DNA of 38,794 bases from an uncultured Pseudomonadota bacterium (GTDB lineage: Bacteria; Pseudomonadota; Alphaproteobacteria; UBA9219), in contig CAIXHP010000049.1 of assembly GCA_903919315.1 (NCBI GenBank), positions 1 through 38,794 of the forward strand, read 5' to 3'. The first letter of the stretch is position 1. Each line of letters starts with the position of its first letter. Below the pieces are notes generated by a model. It was given only the letters and a program-made list of their open reading frames with translations, was not told the origin of the DNA and searched no databases. Below are positions 9,771 through 28,601 of the stretch, one piece after another. A program made the translations under genes and the position numbers.

Positions 9771-10061
9771 ATGGAGCCTGACTTTTTCGTGAACGAGATT
9801 TGCGAAATGGTGGTGGTGGAAAACCAGCGCGGCCTGCACGCGCGCGCGGCTGCCAAACTTGTGCGCGTGGTCGAAGGCTTTAAGGCCGACGTGAATGTTT
9901 CGCGCGACGATATGCGCGTGTCGGGCCGCTCGATCATGGGGCTGATGATGCTGGCCGCCGCCAACGGAACCTGCCTGAAATTATGCGCCACCGGCGATGA
10001 TGCTGATGCCGCCGTCGCCGCCGTGGTCGAACTTGTGAAACGGAAATTCGATGAAGATTAG
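9771..10061 (+). CDS. ptsH: HPr phosphocarrier
   Basis: Histidine-containing phosphocarrier of 96 aa. The active His23 lies in NQRGLHARAAAKLV, and the regulatory Ser54 lies in VSGRSIMGLMMLAAANG, the expected target of the HprK encoded at 6979. An N-terminal extension of about 8 residues is seen relative to the usual HPr. Its stop overlaps the start of the enzyme I gene by 11 bases, implying coupled translation. Confidence 0.95.
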   Translation: MEPDFFVNEICEMVVVENQRGLHARAAAKLVRVVEGFKADVNVSRDDMRVSGRSIMGLMMLAAANGTCLKLCATGDDADAAVAAVVELVKRKFDED

Positions 10062-11829
10062 CGACAGCAAGCCCATCGACGAGCAACGTCTGGTGGGGAT
10101 TCCGGTTTCGCCCGGCATCGCGATAGGCCCGGCCTTTGTCATCGACCAGCACGGCGTGCCGGTGCCGGAGTACGCCGTTCCGGCGGGGCAGGTTGACAAG
10201 GAGTTAAAGCGCTTCAACGCCGCCGTCGCCAAAACGCAAAAGCAGCTGAGCCAGCTGCGCCAAAAGGCCGAAGCCTTGCCCGCCGGAGCGGCGGACGAAA
10301 TCTCGCTGCTGCTCGAAGCCTACAAAGGCATGTTGTCGAGTGCGCGGCTTGTGGGCGGCGTGGAGTCGCTGATCCAGAACGAACGCATCAACGCCGAAGC
10401 CGCCATTCACCGCCAGATCACCGCCATCGCGGCCAGCTTTGCGGCCATGGACGATGTCTATCTCGCGGCGCGTGTTGCCGATGTGCGCGGGGTGGGCGAA
10501 CGCCTGATCCGTAATCTGCTGCAGCAGCAGTACAATCCCTTTGCCGACGCGCCGGAAAACAGCATCCTGATCGCCGAGGAAATCACGCCCGCCGATACCG
10601 CCCTGATGAACCCTGAGCGCGTGGCGGGCTTCGCCGCCGTGCTGGGCGGAGCCGAAGGCCACGCGGCCATCATGGCCCGCGCGTTGGGGCTTCCCGCTGC
10701 GTTGGGTGTCACCGCGATGATCAGCGGCATCGCCAACGGCGACACGGTCATCATCGACGGCGGGCAGGGGCTGATTATCGTGCGTCCCGAACCGGCGACG
10801 TTGCAGCATTATCGGCAGGAGGCCGCAAAGCAAGCCCGCGAAACGCGGCGGCTGAAATCGTTGCGCGACGTTCCCGCCGTCACCAGCGATGGCGTTCCCG
10901 TGACGCTGCAGGCAAATCTGGAACTGCCGCGCGAAGCGGAATCGGCGTTGGAAGCCGGAGCTTCGGGCATCGGTCTGTTGCGCACCGAGTTCATGTTCAT
11001 GAACCGCGCCACGCTGCCGGACGAAGACGAACAATTCGACGTGCTGCGCCAACTGGTGCAGGCGATGGACGGCAGACCGCTGACCGTGCGCACACTGGAT
11101 GTCGGCGGCGAGAAACTGGCGACGGCGCTGGGCGACGCGGTGGGCGAGAGCGTCAATCCGGCCTTGGGCCTACGCGCCATTCGCCTAGGTTTGCGCGAAC
11201 CGAAATTGCTGGAAACGCAGCTGGCCGCGATCCTGCGCGCCGCCGCGTTGGGGCCTGTGCGCATCCTCGTGCCGATGGTGTCGTCGGTCGCGCAAATGCG
11301 GCAACTGCGCGAGCATGTGATGCAGGTGGAGCGCCGTTTGCACCGGCGCGGGCTTAAGACGGCAACGGCCATCCCGCCCATCGGCGCGATGATCGAGATT
11401 CCGGGCGCGGCGCTGGCGGCGGATGCCTTCGCCAAAGTCTGCGATTTTTTCGCCATCGGCAGCAACGACCTGACCCAATACACGCTGGCGATCGATCGCG
11501 GCGACGAACGCGTGGCCGACCTGTACGATCCGTTTCATCCGGCGGTGCTGCGGCTCATCCAATTCACGATTGCGGCGGCTTGGCGGGCTAATATTTCCGT
11601 CAGCCTCTGCGGCGAAATGGCGGGCGATCCGCGCGCGGTGCCGTTGTTGCTGGGTTTGGGCCTGCGCGAGTTCTCGATGGCGCCGTCGCGCCTGCCGCTG
11701 GTCAAACAGGAAATCCGCGCCACCTCGATGCCCCAAGCCGTCGCCTTCGCCGAATCCATCATGGCCCGCAGCGACGAAGCCGACATCAAACTTTTGCTGG
11801 ATCGCGGCGTTGAACCGATGAAGCGGTAG
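10051..11829 (+). CDS. ptsI: PTS enzyme I (PEP-protein phosphotransferase)
   Basis: Transfers phosphate from PEP to HPr. The 592-aa product has the N-terminal EI domain starting at LVGIPVSPGIAIGPAFVI and the swivelling phosphohistidine domain with GGAEGHAAIMARALGLPAAL (His204). The C-terminal PEP-binding barrel carries GASGIGLLRTEFMFM (about 303-317), IGAMIEIPGAAL, FFAIGSNDLTQYTLAIDR, and the active Cys520 in SLCGEMAGDP. There is no N-terminal GAF domain, so it is the PtsI rather than the PtsP architecture. It ends the rapZ-EIIA-ptsH-ptsI operon. Confidence 0.96.
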   Translation: MKISDSKPIDEQRLVGIPVSPGIAIGPAFVIDQHGVPVPEYAVPAGQVDKELKRFNAAVAKTQKQLSQLRQKAEALPAGAADEISLLLEAYKGMLSSARLVGGVESLIQNERINAEAAIHRQITAIAASFAAMDDVYLAARVADVRGVGERLIRNLLQQQYNPFADAPENSILIAEEITPADTALMNPERVAGFAAVLGGAEGHAAIMARALGLPAALGVTAMISGIANGDTVIIDGGQGLIIVRPEPATLQHYRQEAAKQARETRRLKSLRDVPAVTSDGVPVTLQANLELPREAESALEAGASGIGLLRTEFMFMNRATLPDEDEQFDVLRQLVQAMDGRPLTVRTLDVGGEKLATALGDAVGESVNPALGLRAIRLGLREPKLLETQLAAILRAAALGPVRILVPMVSSVAQMRQLREHVMQVERRLHRRGLKTATAIPPIGAMIEIPGAALAADAFAKVCDFFAIGSNDLTQYTLAIDRGDERVADLYDPFHPAVLRLIQFTIAAAWRANISVSLCGEMAGDPRAVPLLLGLGLREFSMAPSRLPLVKQEIRATSMPQAVAFAESIMARSDEADIKLLLDRGVEPMKR

Positions 11830-11845
11830 CCGAACCCCCTTCCCA

Positions 11846-11990
11846 CGAGGGGGGGGGAACTCCTGCGTCAAACCCACCACGCCTTGCGCCCGCACGACGC
11901 GCGTGAAGCTATTGCGCCGCAATAAGCGAGCAGACCGTACGCGATAGCATAGCCGAACAAGCATACCGAAACCCGCTCGTTACGCAGTCG
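11846..11990 (-). pseudogene. Decayed partial copy of hpnD 3' end
   Basis: Read on the minus strand in one frame, this stretch encodes RVSVCLFGYAIA, then AYCGAI, then SRASCGRKAWWV and a stop at 11868-11870. These match three separated parts of the intact hpnD nearby: RASVRLFGDASA (about residues 144-155), AYYGAI (249-254) and SRWRKAWLV (273-281), so the pieces between are deleted. Nucleotide similarity continues past the stop into the 3' flank (CGAGGGGG, ACTCCT, CAAAC blocks), showing a DNA-level duplication and not only protein similarity. Confidence 0.7.
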
Positions 11991-11991
11991 A

Positions 11992-12258
11992 TCAAGGCTT
12001 TGGAGCGGGTATGTTCTTCAAGTAACGGACGGTGCGCACAGCATGCAATAAAACGGGCAGGCAAAGGCAGGCCGCAGCAACACCAAAGACGAGAGCAGGA
12101 AGTGGATAACCTGCATTGGATAGATTAATACCGGCAGTCGCATTACTACCTGCGGGGGCAAAGGAGGCACCGCCAAGTGTTAATTCCTTTTTGACCACAT
12201 CCCATGCAGAATGGACAGTAGGCCGTTTGGGGTCAATCTTGCCACTATGCGCAGTCAT
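11992..12258 (-). CDS. Unknown small membrane protein (88 aa)
   Basis: Not recognised. The N-terminal half is hydrophilic (MTAHSGKIDPKRPTVHSAWD). One likely transmembrane helix, ALVFGVAAACLCLPVLLHAV, lies near residues 55-74, followed by a short basic tail. GGGAGG seven bases before the ATG at 12258 is an excellent ribosome site and decides against the longer open frame reaching 12387. The gene lies between a decayed hpnD fragment and the intact hpnD, and is less GC-rich than both, so it may have arrived with the rearrangement that duplicated the hpnD end. Confidence 0.65.
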   Translation of the reverse strand: MTAHSGKIDPKRPTVHSAWDVVKKELTLGGASFAPAGSNATAGINLSNAGYPLPALVFGVAAACLCLPVLLHAVRTVRYLKNIPAPKP

Positions 12259-12414
12259 TTTTATCCTCCCACCGAAATTAAACTTGAGTGCAAGTATACT
12301 GCAGAAAGATGAAACTAAAAAGATAAACAGGATGGTTAACGGGGCTTTTTTCAGCCGTTTTGCAAAAGCCCTCTGATCAAGCCGCAACGCGAGAACGCGA
12401 GGGGGATGGCACTC

Positions 12415-13275
12415 CTACACCAAACTCGCCGCCACCAGCCACGCCTTGCGCCAGCGTGACAGCGAAACGCGCGTCATGGGATTGCGCCAGTCTTCTTCGA
12501 CCAGACGGGCAAAGATCGCGCCGTAATAGGCTCGCATGATGCGGGCGGGGCGCATGGCGGCGGCGGGGCACAATTTCATAGCATCAGAGGCCGCCGTAAA
12601 ATGATCGCCCGCAAGGACGGCCAGATCGCGGCACACGGCGCGGAGGTTGGGATCGCGCAAGACCTGCTGCGGATCGAGGGAAGCGCCATGCTTGACCAAC
12701 AATTCGCGCGGCAGATACAGCCGTCCCCGCGCCGCGTCCTCGGCCACATCGCGCAGGATGTTGGTGAGCTGCAACGCGCGGCCCAGATGGTGCGCGACGC
12801 GCATGCCGTTGGCGCTGGCATCGCCGAACAAGCGCACCGAAGCCCGCCCCACGGCGCTGGCCACGCGGTCGCAATAAAGGTCGAGCGTCGCCATGTCGGG
12901 CGCGCAGATAGGCGCGTCCGCGTCCATGTCCATGCCGTCGATGATGGCCTGAAAATCGTCCTCGACGAGGGCAAAGGGCTTGATGGCGGGGAGGAGGGCG
13001 GTGGTGATCGCGTCGCTGGCCGCGCTGCGCCGGAACAGATCGGCGATGCGTTGCCGCCACAGCGCCAATCCGGCTTTGCGTTCCTCCAGCGTCGGCAGAT
13101 CGTCGGCGATGTCGTCCACCTCGCGGCAAAAGGCATAGAGCGCGTACATGGCCTCCCGCCGCGCGCGCGGCAACACGGCCATGCCCGCGCCGAACGACGT
13201 GCGCGAAGCCGCCACCCGCGCGCGCACCTCGCGCAGGGCTTGCTGATAGGACATGGGGGACGTTTCGAGGGTCAT
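12415..13275 (-). CDS. hpnD: Presqualene diphosphate synthase-like (HpnD)
   Basis: Squalene/phytoene synthase family enzyme, 286 aa. HpnD condenses two farnesyl diphosphates to presqualene diphosphate for hopanoids. Aspartate-rich motif 1 is AFCREVDDIADD (48-59), and motif 2 is QLTNILRDVAEDAARGRLYL (169-188). The GMDMDA segment (114-119) and SFGAGMAVLPRARREAMYAL start favour HpnD over HpnC or CrtB. hpnC and hpnE, its usual partners, are not in the window, so a phytoene synthase role cannot be fully excluded. Start at the first ATG; an alternative at 13254 has no better ribosome site. A decayed fragment of the same gene lies downstream. Confidence 0.82.
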   Translation of the reverse strand: MTLETSPMSYQQALREVRARVAASRTSFGAGMAVLPRARREAMYALYAFCREVDDIADDLPTLEERKAGLALWRQRIADLFRRSAASDAITTALLPAIKPFALVEDDFQAIIDGMDMDADAPICAPDMATLDLYCDRVASAVGRASVRLFGDASANGMRVAHHLGRALQLTNILRDVAEDAARGRLYLPRELLVKHGASLDPQQVLRDPNLRAVCRDLAVLAGDHFTAASDAMKLCPAAAMRPARIMRAYYGAIFARLVEEDWRNPMTRVSLSRWRKAWLVAASLV

Positions 13276-13427
13276 GAACGAAGCCCATAGCGACGGAGGA
13301 CAAGGACGGCGAAGCCGGAAACTTCCGACTTTTTGGCCGGTTTGTCCATCAGGCTTCGAAGCCCCGCCGTTAAATCGTTACGCCCCTGTTGTATTCTTTC
13401 CGGCGGGCCTTTAGGGTTGGGCGGTAT

Positions 13428-13450
13428 GGCCCGCTCCCGATGAGCGGGCC
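13428..13450 (+). promoter_or_regulatory. Hairpin in lysS leader
   Basis: A perfect 8-bp stem GGCCCGCT / AGCGGGCC with a 7-base loop lies about 30 bases before the lysS ATG. There is no T-run after it, so it is not a plain terminator. It may influence lysS translation or mRNA stability; no T-box or known riboswitch pattern was recognised. Confidence 0.4.
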
Positions 13451-13480
13451 TTGATCCCCTGACCGAGTTTTGAGCCCATT

Positions 13481-14983
13481 ATGTCTGATAGTGCCGTCCC
13501 CGCCGCCCCCTTGGCCGCCGAAGATGAATTGTCCCGCCGCACCGCGCGGCTCGCGAAGATCACCGAACTCTGCGGCGATCCGTTCTTCATCACCAAATTC
13601 GACAAAACGCACAGCGCCACGGCGGTGAAGACGAAGTTCGAAGGCCTAGCCGCCGGTGAAAAGACCGACCAGAGCGTGAGCGTCGCCGGGCGCGTCATGG
13701 CGATCCGCAACAACGGCATGTTCGTCGTCATCCTCGACGACACCGACCGTTTGCAAATCTTCCACGACCTGAAGGCCTCGGCGCCGGAGCTGTTGGAACT
13801 GCTCGCGCTGCTCGATCTCGGCGACATCATCGGCGTGACGGGCCTCGTGCGTCGCACCCCGCGCGGCGAAATCACGGTGGACGCGACGGAACTCAAGGTT
13901 CTGAGCAAAGCCTTGGAGCCGCCGCCGGAAAAATTCCACGGCCTCAAGGATGTCGAAGCGCGTTTTCGCCACCGCGAGCAGGATCTTGTCGCCACGCCCC
14001 GCACGCGCGAGACGTTGCGCGCGCGCTACAAAATGGTCGCCGCGATCCGCCAGTATCTTTACGACCGCGAATTCCTCGAAGTCGAAACGCCGATGCTGCA
14101 TGTGATGGCGGGCGGCGCGATTGCCAAGCCCTTTGTCACGCACCATAACGCGCTCGACATGCCGCTTTACCTGCGCATCGCGCCGGAACTGCATCTCAAG
14201 CGCCTCGTCATCGGCGGCGTGTCGGAGAAACTGTTCGAAATCAACCGCTGCTTCCGCAACGAAGGCCTGAGCCCCAAGCACAACCCCGAATTCACCTCGC
14301 TGGAGGTCTATCAGGCCTACGTCGATTTCACCGCGATGATCGACCTGACGGAAGCCATCGTTCACCATGTGGCGCTGATGCTGCACGGCACGGGCAAAGT
14401 GAAATTCGGCGACAAGGAAATCGACTTCACGCCCCCGTGGCCGCGCAAGGGCATGGTGGAACTGGTGCGCGAACATACCGGCCTCGACCTCGACGCGCTG
14501 ACCGATCCGGTCGCGGCGCGGGCGGCGGCACAAAAAATCGGCGTTTCGACCGAGCCGGGCCTCAGCTGGGGCCAGATCGTCGAAACCGTCTTTGGCCACA
14601 AGGTCGAGGACAAGCTGATCCAGCCGACGCATGTGATCGACCTGCCCAAGGAAATCTCGCCGTTGTCGAAGGCGTGGCCGGATCGCCCCCATGTGGCGCA
14701 GCGGTTCGAGACGTATGTGAACGGCTGGGAAATCGCCAACGCGTTCTCCGAGCTGAACGACCCCCGCGAACAGCGGGCGCGGTTTCTGGAGCAAGCCGAG
14801 CAAAAGCGCGGCCCCGACGATCCCCCGCACCCCATCGACGAGGACTTCATCAAGGCGCTGGCCTTTGGCATGCCGCCGATGGGCGGATTGGGCATCGGCA
14901 TCGACCGCCTCGGCATGCTGATGACCGACAGCGCAAGCATCCGCGAAGTCATCGCCTTCCCGACCATGCGCGCGGTGGATTAG
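13481..14983 (+). CDS. lysS: Lysyl-tRNA synthetase, class II
   Basis: Charges tRNA-Lys. The 500-aa class II enzyme has an N-terminal OB-fold anticodon-binding domain (VAGRVMAIRNNGMFVVILDD region, about 66-87) and then the catalytic core. Motif 1 lies around FLEVETPMLHVMAGGAIAKP, motif 2 around NRCFRNEGLSPKHNPEFTSL, and motif 3 is GIGIDRLGMLM close to the C-terminus. Length is normal. Many alphaproteobacteria use the unrelated class I LysRS, so the class II type is a useful lineage marker. Confidence 0.96.
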   Translation: MSDSAVPAAPLAAEDELSRRTARLAKITELCGDPFFITKFDKTHSATAVKTKFEGLAAGEKTDQSVSVAGRVMAIRNNGMFVVILDDTDRLQIFHDLKASAPELLELLALLDLGDIIGVTGLVRRTPRGEITVDATELKVLSKALEPPPEKFHGLKDVEARFRHREQDLVATPRTRETLRARYKMVAAIRQYLYDREFLEVETPMLHVMAGGAIAKPFVTHHNALDMPLYLRIAPELHLKRLVIGGVSEKLFEINRCFRNEGLSPKHNPEFTSLEVYQAYVDFTAMIDLTEAIVHHVALMLHGTGKVKFGDKEIDFTPPWPRKGMVELVREHTGLDLDALTDPVAARAAAQKIGVSTEPGLSWGQIVETVFGHKVEDKLIQPTHVIDLPKEISPLSKAWPDRPHVAQRFETYVNGWEIANAFSELNDPREQRARFLEQAEQKRGPDDPPHPIDEDFIKALAFGMPPMGGLGIGIDRLGMLMTDSASIREVIAFPTMRAVD

Positions 14984-25919: not shown

Positions 25920-26862
25920 TCACGCGCTTTAGCGCCGCTTCGTCCTCGAACGTCAAAGTCACGGGCAACACCGCGACCTGCGCCCGAAAGGCATCGGGGA
26001 GGCGCACCCAGTCCTTGGCCGTGGTGATGAGGCGGAGGTTCTGCGCCTTGGCCTGTTCCGCCAGCGCGGCGAGTTCCGGCGGCGTGAACAGGTGATGATC
26101 GGGGAAATCCTTTGTGACGGCCAACGCCAGCCCCGCCTCGCGGCACGAGGCATAAAATTTCGCAGGCCGTCCGATTCCGGCAAAAGCGAGGAACGCGCCG
26201 TCGCGCGGAAAATCGTCGGACAACGCAGAAGTCAATTGCGCCTGAAGGACGGGGATTTTGCGGGCAAAGGGCAGGGGCCGCGCCAGAGCGCCGATCACGA
26301 TCACCGCGTCCAACCGCTTGGTCGCCTCGATGAAATCTTCGCGCAGCGGCCCGGCGGGAATGATCGCGCCGTTGCCGAGTCCCGTCGCGCCGTCGATGAC
26401 GCACAGCTTGACGCTCGGCGCGATGGTCGGGTTCTGCAAGCCGTCGTCGAGGATGATATGCGTCGCCTGCGGCGCGGCGGCGCGGATCGCGGCGGCGCGG
26501 TCGCGCCCGATCCAGCACGGCGCGGCGCAAGCCAGCAGCAACGCTTCGTCGCCGACATCGCGCGCGCTGTGGCGGTCGGGATCGACGCGCAACGGCCCGG
26601 CTTCCATCCCGCCATAGCCGCGCGTGACGAAAACCGGTTGAGCGCCCGTTTGCTGCAACAGCCGCGCCAGCGCGAGCGCGGTCGGCGTTTTTCCGGCCCC
26701 GCCCGCCACGACATTGCCGACGCAGATGACAGGAATAGCGGCGCGGTAAGGCCGCGCAAAGGCGCGGCGGATTTCGGCGGCCATTTCATAAACGCGGCCA
26801 AAGGGCATGAGCAACGCGGCGCAAAGGCCAAAGGGGCGGTACCAAAAAGCGGGCGCTTTCAT
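25906..26862 (-). CDS. lpxK: Tetraacyldisaccharide 4'-kinase LpxK
   Basis: Phosphorylates the 4' position of the lipid A precursor at the inner membrane. The 318-aa product has an N-terminal amphipathic/hydrophobic region, then the P-loop GNVVAGGAGKTPTALAL (49-65, Lys58), followed by VTRGYGG, VGDEALLLA, IILDDGLQNP and ITTAKDWVRL, all family hallmarks. Start at the ATG at 26862 with AGGAG eight bases upstream; it overlaps the waaA stop as ATGA, so the two are translationally coupled. Confidence 0.95.
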   Translation of the reverse strand: MKAPAFWYRPFGLCAALLMPFGRVYEMAAEIRRAFARPYRAAIPVICVGNVVAGGAGKTPTALALARLLQQTGAQPVFVTRGYGGMEAGPLRVDPDRHSARDVGDEALLLACAAPCWIGRDRAAAIRAAAPQATHIILDDGLQNPTIAPSVKLCVIDGATGLGNGAIIPAGPLREDFIEATKRLDAVIVIGALARPLPFARKIPVLQAQLTSALSDDFPRDGAFLAFAGIGRPAKFYASCREAGLALAVTKDFPDHHLFTPPELAALAEQAKAQNLRLITTAKDWVRLPDAFRAQVAVLPVTLTFEDEAALKRVIRTA

Positions 26863-28601
26863 GGCGTTTTCTCCTGCGCGAGCCACGGATCCAACAGGCG
26901 AAGCGTTGCGTCCAGAACATGGCTCTGGCGTTCCGCCACGGCGCGGGCGGCGGCGGCAAGAGCGGCCGCTTCCTCCGGCGCGGCCAGCAGACGCGCCAGC
27001 GCCGTGGCCAGCTCGTCGGGCGCGGCCACTTGCAGGGCGGCGTTGTGCTGCACAAGGTCGGCGGCGATTTCGGCGAAGTTGGGCATGCAGGGGCCAAAGA
27101 CCATGGCGCAGCCGAGTTGCGCAGGCTCCACCGGATTATGCCCGCCCCAAGTGAAGGATCCGCCCAAACATGTCACCGATGCCAGCCGATAAAACAGCCC
27201 CAGTTCCCCCATCGTGTCGGCGAGATAGATTTGCGTGGCGGGGGTAATGTCCTGATGCTGGGAACGACGAACGCAAACGTCACGCACCCCCTCCCCAACC
27301 CTCCCCTCAAGGGGGAGGGAGCCCCGAAAGCCCTCCTCCAATTCCTCCCCCCTTGAGGGGGAGGTTAGGTGGGGGGTGGCTTCCGCATGTACGGACGTTG
27401 CAGGACGAGCGTCCACAGACCCCCCACCCAACCCTCCCCCCAGAGGGGGAGGGCTTTGCAGTGTGCTGCTCTGTCTCCTCCCGGAATCCCCCCCCAATTC
27501 CTCCCCCCTTGAGGGGGAGGTTAGGTGGGGGGTAGTTTCCGCATGCACGGACGCATCAGGACGAGCGTCCACAGACCCCCCAACTAACCCTCCACACAGA
27601 GGGGTAGGGCTTTGCAGTGTGCCGCTCTGTCCCCTCCCGGAATCCCTCCCTAATTCCTCCCCCCTTGAGGGGGAGGTTAGGTGGGGGGTGGTTTCCGCAA
27701 GCGCGGACGCATCAGGACGAGCGTCCAGAGACCCCCCACCCAACCCTCCCCCCAGAGGGGGAGGGTTTTGCAGGAGGGCCTTAATGGCTCCGCCGCGCTC
27801 GGCGTGGCGTGGGACAATGATGGTCAAAAGGTCGGGCCAGCGCCTGCGCAGCATTTGGTGCGCGTCCAGCGCGATTTGCTCCTCGCCCGGATGCGTGGAG
27901 GCCATCACCCATACCTTGCGCCCGCCGATCTGGGCCTTCAGGCGGCGCAATTCCGCTTCGTCGCAGGGCAGCGGCTCGGCGGCGAATTTGAGATTGCCGA
28001 CGTAGCGCATGTCGCGCAACCCCAGCGCGGCAAAGCGTTGGCGCTCGACTTCGGTTTGCGCCAAACCCAACGCGAACGCGCCGAGCAGCTCCCGCGCCCA
28101 GCTTTTCACAAAGCTCCATTGGCGAAAGGATTTCTCCGACATGCGCCCGTTCAGCAGAACCGCCGGAACGGCGCGGCGGCGCAGAGCGGTCAGCATGTTG
28201 GGCCACAGTTCGGACTCGACCCACAAAGCCAGATCAGGCCGCCAATGATCGAGAAAGCGCGTCACATAAGCCCAGCGATCCACCGGGACATACTGATGAA
28301 ACACGCCCGGCGGCAGGCGCGAGGCCAACAGCTGCGCGGACGTGACCGTGCCGGTGGTCAGAAGAATGCTCCAGTGCGGATAGGCGCGGCGCAGGGCTTT
28401 GGCGAGGCTTAAAACCGACATGGCCTCGCCGACGCTGGCGGCATGGCACCAAACCAGCTTGCCCGCAGGACGCGCTGCCGAAGCGTAGCCGAGCCGTTCG
28501 GGAAAACGCGCCGGATCCTCGCGCCCCTTGGCGCGACGGCGGCGCAAGACGAGCGCAATCGCCGGTGCGCCGAGGTCGGTCAGAACGCGGTAAAGCCACA
28601 T
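26859..28601 (-). CDS. waaA: Kdo transferase WaaA with an in-frame repeat insertion
   Basis: Adds Kdo to lipid IVA; inner-membrane-associated GT-B glycosyltransferase. Residues 1 to about 275 are the N-terminal domain (MWLYRVLTDLGAPAIALVLR, then WCHAASVGEAMSVLSLAKAL with the catalytic-type Glu, and YVPVDRWAYVTRFLDHWRPD). The C-terminal domain resumes near residue 440 with IYLADTMGELGLFYRLASVT and GGHNPVEPAQLGCAMVFGP. Between them about 160 residues are Pro/Gly/Ser-rich and come from 156-bp palindromic tandem repeats. Without the insertion the length would be the normal 420 or so. Both catalytic halves stay in one frame, so the protein may still be functional with a long loop. Coupled to lpxK by an ATGA overlap. 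Confidence 0.92.
   Translation of the reverse strand: MWLYRVLTDLGAPAIALVLRRRRAKGREDPARFPERLGYASAARPAGKLVWCHAASVGEAMSVLSLAKALRRAYPHWSILLTTGTVTSAQLLASRLPPGVFHQYVPVDRWAYVTRFLDHWRPDLALWVESELWPNMLTALRRRAVPAVLLNGRMSEKSFRQWSFVKSWARELLGAFALGLAQTEVERQRFAALGLRDMRYVGNLKFAAEPLPCDEAELRRLKAQIGGRKVWVMASTHPGEEQIALDAHQMLRRRWPDLLTIIVPRHAERGGAIKALLQNPPPLGGGLGGGSLDARPDASALAETTPHLTSPSRGEELGRDSGRGQSGTLQSPTPLCGGLVGGSVDARPDASVHAETTPHLTSPSRGEELGGDSGRRQSSTLQSPPPLGGGLGGGSVDARPATSVHAEATPHLTSPSRGEELEEGFRGSLPLEGRVGEGVRDVCVRRSQHQDITPATQIYLADTMGELGLFYRLASVTCLGGSFTWGGHNPVEPAQLGCAMVFGPCMPNFAEIAADLVQHNAALQVAAPDELATALARLLAAPEEAAALAAAARAVAERQSHVLDATLRLLDPWLAQEKTP
27289..27772. repeat. 156-bp tandem repeats with nested palindromes inside waaA
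   Basis: Two full units start at 27341 and 27497 and a third, partial one starts at 27653; the offset is exactly 156 bases (52 codons) each time. A more diverged half-unit lies at 27289-27340. Each unit has the two inverted GC-rich arms known from 24387-24504, and between them a second dyad GGACGC/GCGTCC. No unit has a stop in the waaA frame, so each adds 52 residues. Confidence 0.92.

Follow-up and report, generated by a model that had tools for sequence, protein, structure and literature searches.

What lies in the 585 bases between ptsI and hpnD, and how did it come to be there? A sequence-only reading of the window (the whole 38,794-nucleotide stretch of DNA that was analysed) had described three separated pieces of hpnD recurring beside a small gene, and proposed duplication coupled with insertion of that gene, followed by decay of the distal copy. 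Our analysis indicates that the interval probably holds a partial, non-functional paralogue of hpnD, the gene next to it, copied in direct orientation, with a low-G+C segment carrying an orphan gene at the junction. The features are listed in Table 1.

Table 1. Intact hpnD and the features mapped between it and ptsI (window coordinates)
Feature	Position	Strand	Remarks
Arm of dispersed G+C-rich hairpin repeat	11837..11860	+	overlaps the remnant's flank, just past the ptsI stop
Putative decayed hpnD 3' end and short 3' flank	11846..11913	-	matches 12398-12483 with gaps; stop lost
Putative short middle hpnD piece	11914..11926	-	matches 12518-12530, 11/13; from the chained alignment; weak alone
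Putative decayed internal hpnD piece	11927..11997	-	matches 12798-12880 with gaps, about codons 132-160
Probable orphan small gene, 88 aa	11992..12258	-	hydrophobic stretch at residues 53-71; GGGAGGA ahead of ATG
A+T-richer spacer upstream of the orphan gene	12259..12397	.	no hpnD 5' part detected
Intact hpnD (presqualene diphosphate synthase), 286 aa	12415..13275	-	NCBIfam TIGR03465, Pfam SQS_PSY

Intact hpnD scores 296.5 bits against TIGR03465, above the curated cut-off of 278.6, and is the only hpnD match at E <= 1e-30 in its own genome (2.4 Mb in 70 contigs). It is flanked by ptsI (10051-11829, plus strand) and lysS (13481-14983, plus strand) rather than by hpnC or hpnE, its usual though not defining neighbours. 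Thirty-eight relatives have an hpnD match at E <= 1e-30, and 29 loci were taken for comparison; in 27 of them hpnC or hpnE lies within about 1.5 kb of hpnD. The hopanoid/squalene genes of this genome are spread over three contigs, with hpnA, hpnB and hpnC on contig 69 (L177), hpnE on contig 18 (L180) and hpnD apart and alone. They are clustered in the eight relatives' loci examined, in the order hpnA-(B)-C-D-E as far as each locus extends (L178, L097-L100, L102, L105 and L116; hpnC is partial in L178 and hpnA was unseen in L098).

Bases 11846-11997 align to hpnD in eight collinear blocks on a single strand, with deletions (chained alignment). The outermost blocks pair 11846-11873 with 12398-12425 and 11991-11997 with 12874-12880. 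The remnant is short, about 150 bases, and has the same orientation as the intact gene (minus strand). Local search recovers two parts of it. One, 11927-11976, matches 12798-12847 at 39/50 nt (E 7e-8); the other, 11846-11918, matches 12398-12488 at 60/91 with gaps (E 1e-5). The pieces thus recur in order with deletions, as had been claimed, and from the claimed start; their end lies near 11997 instead of at 11990. The stop codon, also said to be duplicated, is not kept: where the intact gene has CTA (TAG on the minus strand), the remnant has CTG in the alignment. In 11830-12400 there is no detectable trace of hpnD upstream of about codon 132, its 5' half, so the copy also lacks a start. The second aspartate-rich motif of hpnD presumably falls within the part deleted from the remnant.

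Chance similarity in G+C-rich sequence, which the sequence-only reading had named as the outcome that would overturn it, was assessed with several controls. The chained score of the remnant against hpnD is 98.3. None of 2000 dinucleotide shuffles reaches this value (maximum 57.0), and hpnD in reverse complement gives 31.9. Chain scores as high as 73.3 do occur by comparison with other parts of the window (best of 1482 comparisons, 741 segments on two strands), which is what a chance explanation would draw on, but they stay below 98.3 and every block of the remnant is collinear on one strand. A stricter local score is 71.6, where 1000 shuffles reach at most 52.8 and 457 segments compared on two strands (914 comparisons) at most 60.4. 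Two other results weigh against the reading: across the 2.4 Mb genome its top single piece reaches only E 3.8e-4, and a translated comparison with hpnD is weak (best E 0.007 on the wrong strand and 0.009 on the right one). The shuffles, the reverse-complement control and the window-wide controls lead us to reject chance, which we consider extremely improbable.

The 3' flank of hpnD does align, as had been claimed, and it carries less weight than was given to it. It overlaps a dispersed hairpin repeat, and similarity there is therefore weak evidence. Allowing one mismatch at most, the repeat CCCTCCCCACGAGGGG has 24 occurrences in the genome, against none for a backward control; twelve of these make up six inverted pairs whose members are about 130 bases apart. 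Within the window, a longer pattern finds it at 11837-11857 and 27299-27319, with two mismatches each. The hpnD-coding part of the remnant stands without the flank.

The remnant resembles its neighbour more than any other hpnD compared. The piece at 11927-11976 scores 56 against its own hpnD (39/50) and at most 34 (23/29, locally) against the hpnD genes of 29 relatives; for the 3'-end piece the corresponding scores are 59 and at most 37. Since both larger pieces are closer to their own hpnD, copying most likely took place within this lineage. The 135 aligned coding positions include 28 mismatches, distributed 13/6/9 over codon positions 1/2/3. When differences are polarised, more relatives share the intact base at 21 of 27 and the remnant's base is favoured at 6, each call resting on 9 to 29 relatives and some of the 21 on narrow majorities. 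Changes from G/C to A/T (15) exceed those in the opposite direction (6), a bias that adds little, given the lack of normalisation and a G+C content of 66.5% in the stretch. Although the numbers are small, the pattern looks like that of an unconstrained copy. The remnant has what is expected of a pseudogene: collinear homology above controls, a broken structure with gaps, no detectable 5' half and a lost stop, and signs of relaxed constraint in the spread over codon positions and the share of changes on its side. On sequence grounds, 11846-11997 is very likely a decaying partial paralogue of hpnD, and these differences, the controls and the closeness to the resident gene give good support to the earlier proposal that a duplication took place and the distal copy then decayed.

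Between the remnant and intact hpnD, the segment 11999-12387 has 48.1% G+C, versus 61.2% for the window. It contains most of the small, less G+C-rich gene noticed earlier, which we confirm as an ORF of 88 aa. G+C by codon position is 0.60/0.53/0.44 in this ORF and 0.69/0.50/0.83 in hpnD. Its product would have a single hydrophobic stretch (mean hydropathy 2.46 from residue 53). The stop falls in hpnD-derived sequence (11992-11997), so the junction determined where the gene ends. Among 2000 shuffled versions of 11991-12388, an ATG ORF of at least 88 codons arose in 139, an open frame of at least 131 in 28, and an ATG ORF of at least 85 codons with such a ribosome-binding site in 7; given these frequencies, the ORF is probably, not certainly, a real gene. 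Pattern scans of 11780-13490 found no promoter-like or terminator-like site for it on its strand. Within 11999-12387, two ORFs reach 60 aa: this 88/131-codon frame and, on the opposite strand, a TTG frame of 86 codons. Neither has a Pfam match above cut-off.

The small gene was sought in other genomes, as had been suggested, and no confident relative emerged. Among 58 relatives there were seven matches (E 0.00996 to 0.097, 23-39% identical), all dropped; three contain stops. A search of 32 genomes from the order, a set that overlaps with the 58, gave one match, which is among the same seven. Nothing was found in GTDB contigs (exact peptide patterns), plasmids, phages, viral contigs, PHROGs or NCBIfam. 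A sub-threshold nucleoporin match in Pfam (E 0.019, the only one up to E 10) and one match in PDB (E 0.49) were taken as chance.

On the minus strand, the order is whole hpnD, then the lower-G+C segment, then hpnD from about codon 132 to its end. The following history would account for it. Probably hpnD reached the ptsI-lysS interval first. Its sequence from about codon 132 to the 3' end would then have been duplicated in direct orientation, apparently in place next to the parent gene, with a segment of about 390 bases carrying the 88-codon orphan placed at the copy junction. Point mutations and deletions would afterwards have eroded the copy, which shows no sign of constraint. A single crossover of hpnD with circular DNA bearing its 3' part would give the observed order; tandem duplication with insertion at the junction would be another route to the same order, and the choice between them is one that we can only infer. 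An origin by insertion suits the base composition of the small gene, the failure to find relatives and the position of its end inside hpnD-derived sequence, and the proposed coupling of insertion with duplication is consistent with the layout.

How many events this took is a matter of tentative judgement. Duplication and the arrival of the small gene may have been a single event, a reading that we hold with some reserve. It is also quite possible that the two steps were independent: hpnD would first have undergone a tandem or partial duplication, and later an unrelated insertion would have brought the small gene, with the distal copy losing its 5' half. Such a history departs from the best explanation in event order alone and is otherwise a variant of it. 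It accords with the missing 5' part in 11830-12400, and neither event can be dated, but it needs an extra deletion that ends at the insertion. Far less likely is that the orphan gene forms part of a small mobile segment, specific to the lineage, which inserts into the 3' half of hpnD, restores the gene and leaves a partial hpnD as a scar. Islands that restore the 3' end of their target gene likewise repeat that end at the far side of foreign DNA. The insert 11999-12387 differs from them in having no integrase-sized ORF or transposase gene, and its repeat is roughly half a gene rather than a short att core. At 11970-12420 the longest repeats measure 9 to 11 nt, with no longer terminal repeat on the insert.

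Another origin for the pair would be import: the remnant might be the former native hpnD and the intact gene a later arrival from a related organism, or the reverse. The distance of hpnD here from hpnC and hpnE would suit such a history. However, two members of the same family (G014 and G002) have neither gene on their hpnD contigs (7.5 and 6.1 kb), so this genome is not the only one to have lost the linkage. Family members share up to 70% identity with the intact gene, which is also comparable to the value for hpnC (71% to L099), and the better fit of the remnant to its own hpnD than to those of the 29 relatives disfavours an imported remnant. We regard import as unlikely. That the remnant is retained for a function, for example to act on hpnD as a 3' untranslated or antisense element, seems to us extremely unlikely. 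It does have sequence in common with hpnD and is located downstream of the small gene, on the strand that carries that gene, but its changes look unconstrained and its orientation is direct, not inverted. A read-through transcript from the small gene could therefore not pair with hpnD mRNA; one from ptsI could.

The preferred reading, a partial copy of hpnD made beside its parent with the orphan segment at the junction, has familiar counterparts. Truncated gene duplicates beside a parent gene share the collinear partial copy, the deletions, the lost stop and the changes at all codon positions; the hpnD case differs by the orphan gene at the junction. Single-crossover insertion-duplication of circular DNA leaves the same series of whole gene, foreign segment and 3' part in direct orientation. 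At the hpnD locus no vector gene is recognised, and the process is deduced from the layout. The remnant would be what an ordinary gene duplication and its decay leave behind, a small fossil of rearrangement in the genome that does not affect views of hopanoid synthesis. It would mark the entry point of the orphan gene, beside an hpnD that has departed from the hopanoid cluster in this lineage.

Among the loci compared, the arrangement is seen here alone, and no genome in an intermediate state came to light. A genus search returned only this genome, with no second member for comparison. No two of ptsI, hpnD, lysS and the small gene occur together in the 29 relatives' hpnD loci, in 29 ptsI loci (28 relatives) or in 17 lysS loci, where loci reach at most about 1.5 kb to each side and less at contig ends. 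Of three publications in which hpnD and pseudogene both occur, none concerns the subject by its title.

A separate observation concerns hairpin repeats elsewhere in the window. A Kdo transferase gene (ORF 26859-28601, minus strand) carries a G+C-rich hairpin repeat of 156 bases in 2.9 tandem copies at 27323-27773. The assignment rests on Pfam Glycos_transf_N; the NCBIfam lipid IV(A) Kdo transferase models match below their cut-offs, and for three of the five the match is split into two stretches. The repeat length is a multiple of 3 and the Kdo transferase frame remains open. The repeat resembles the in-frame palindromic elements of Rickettsia.
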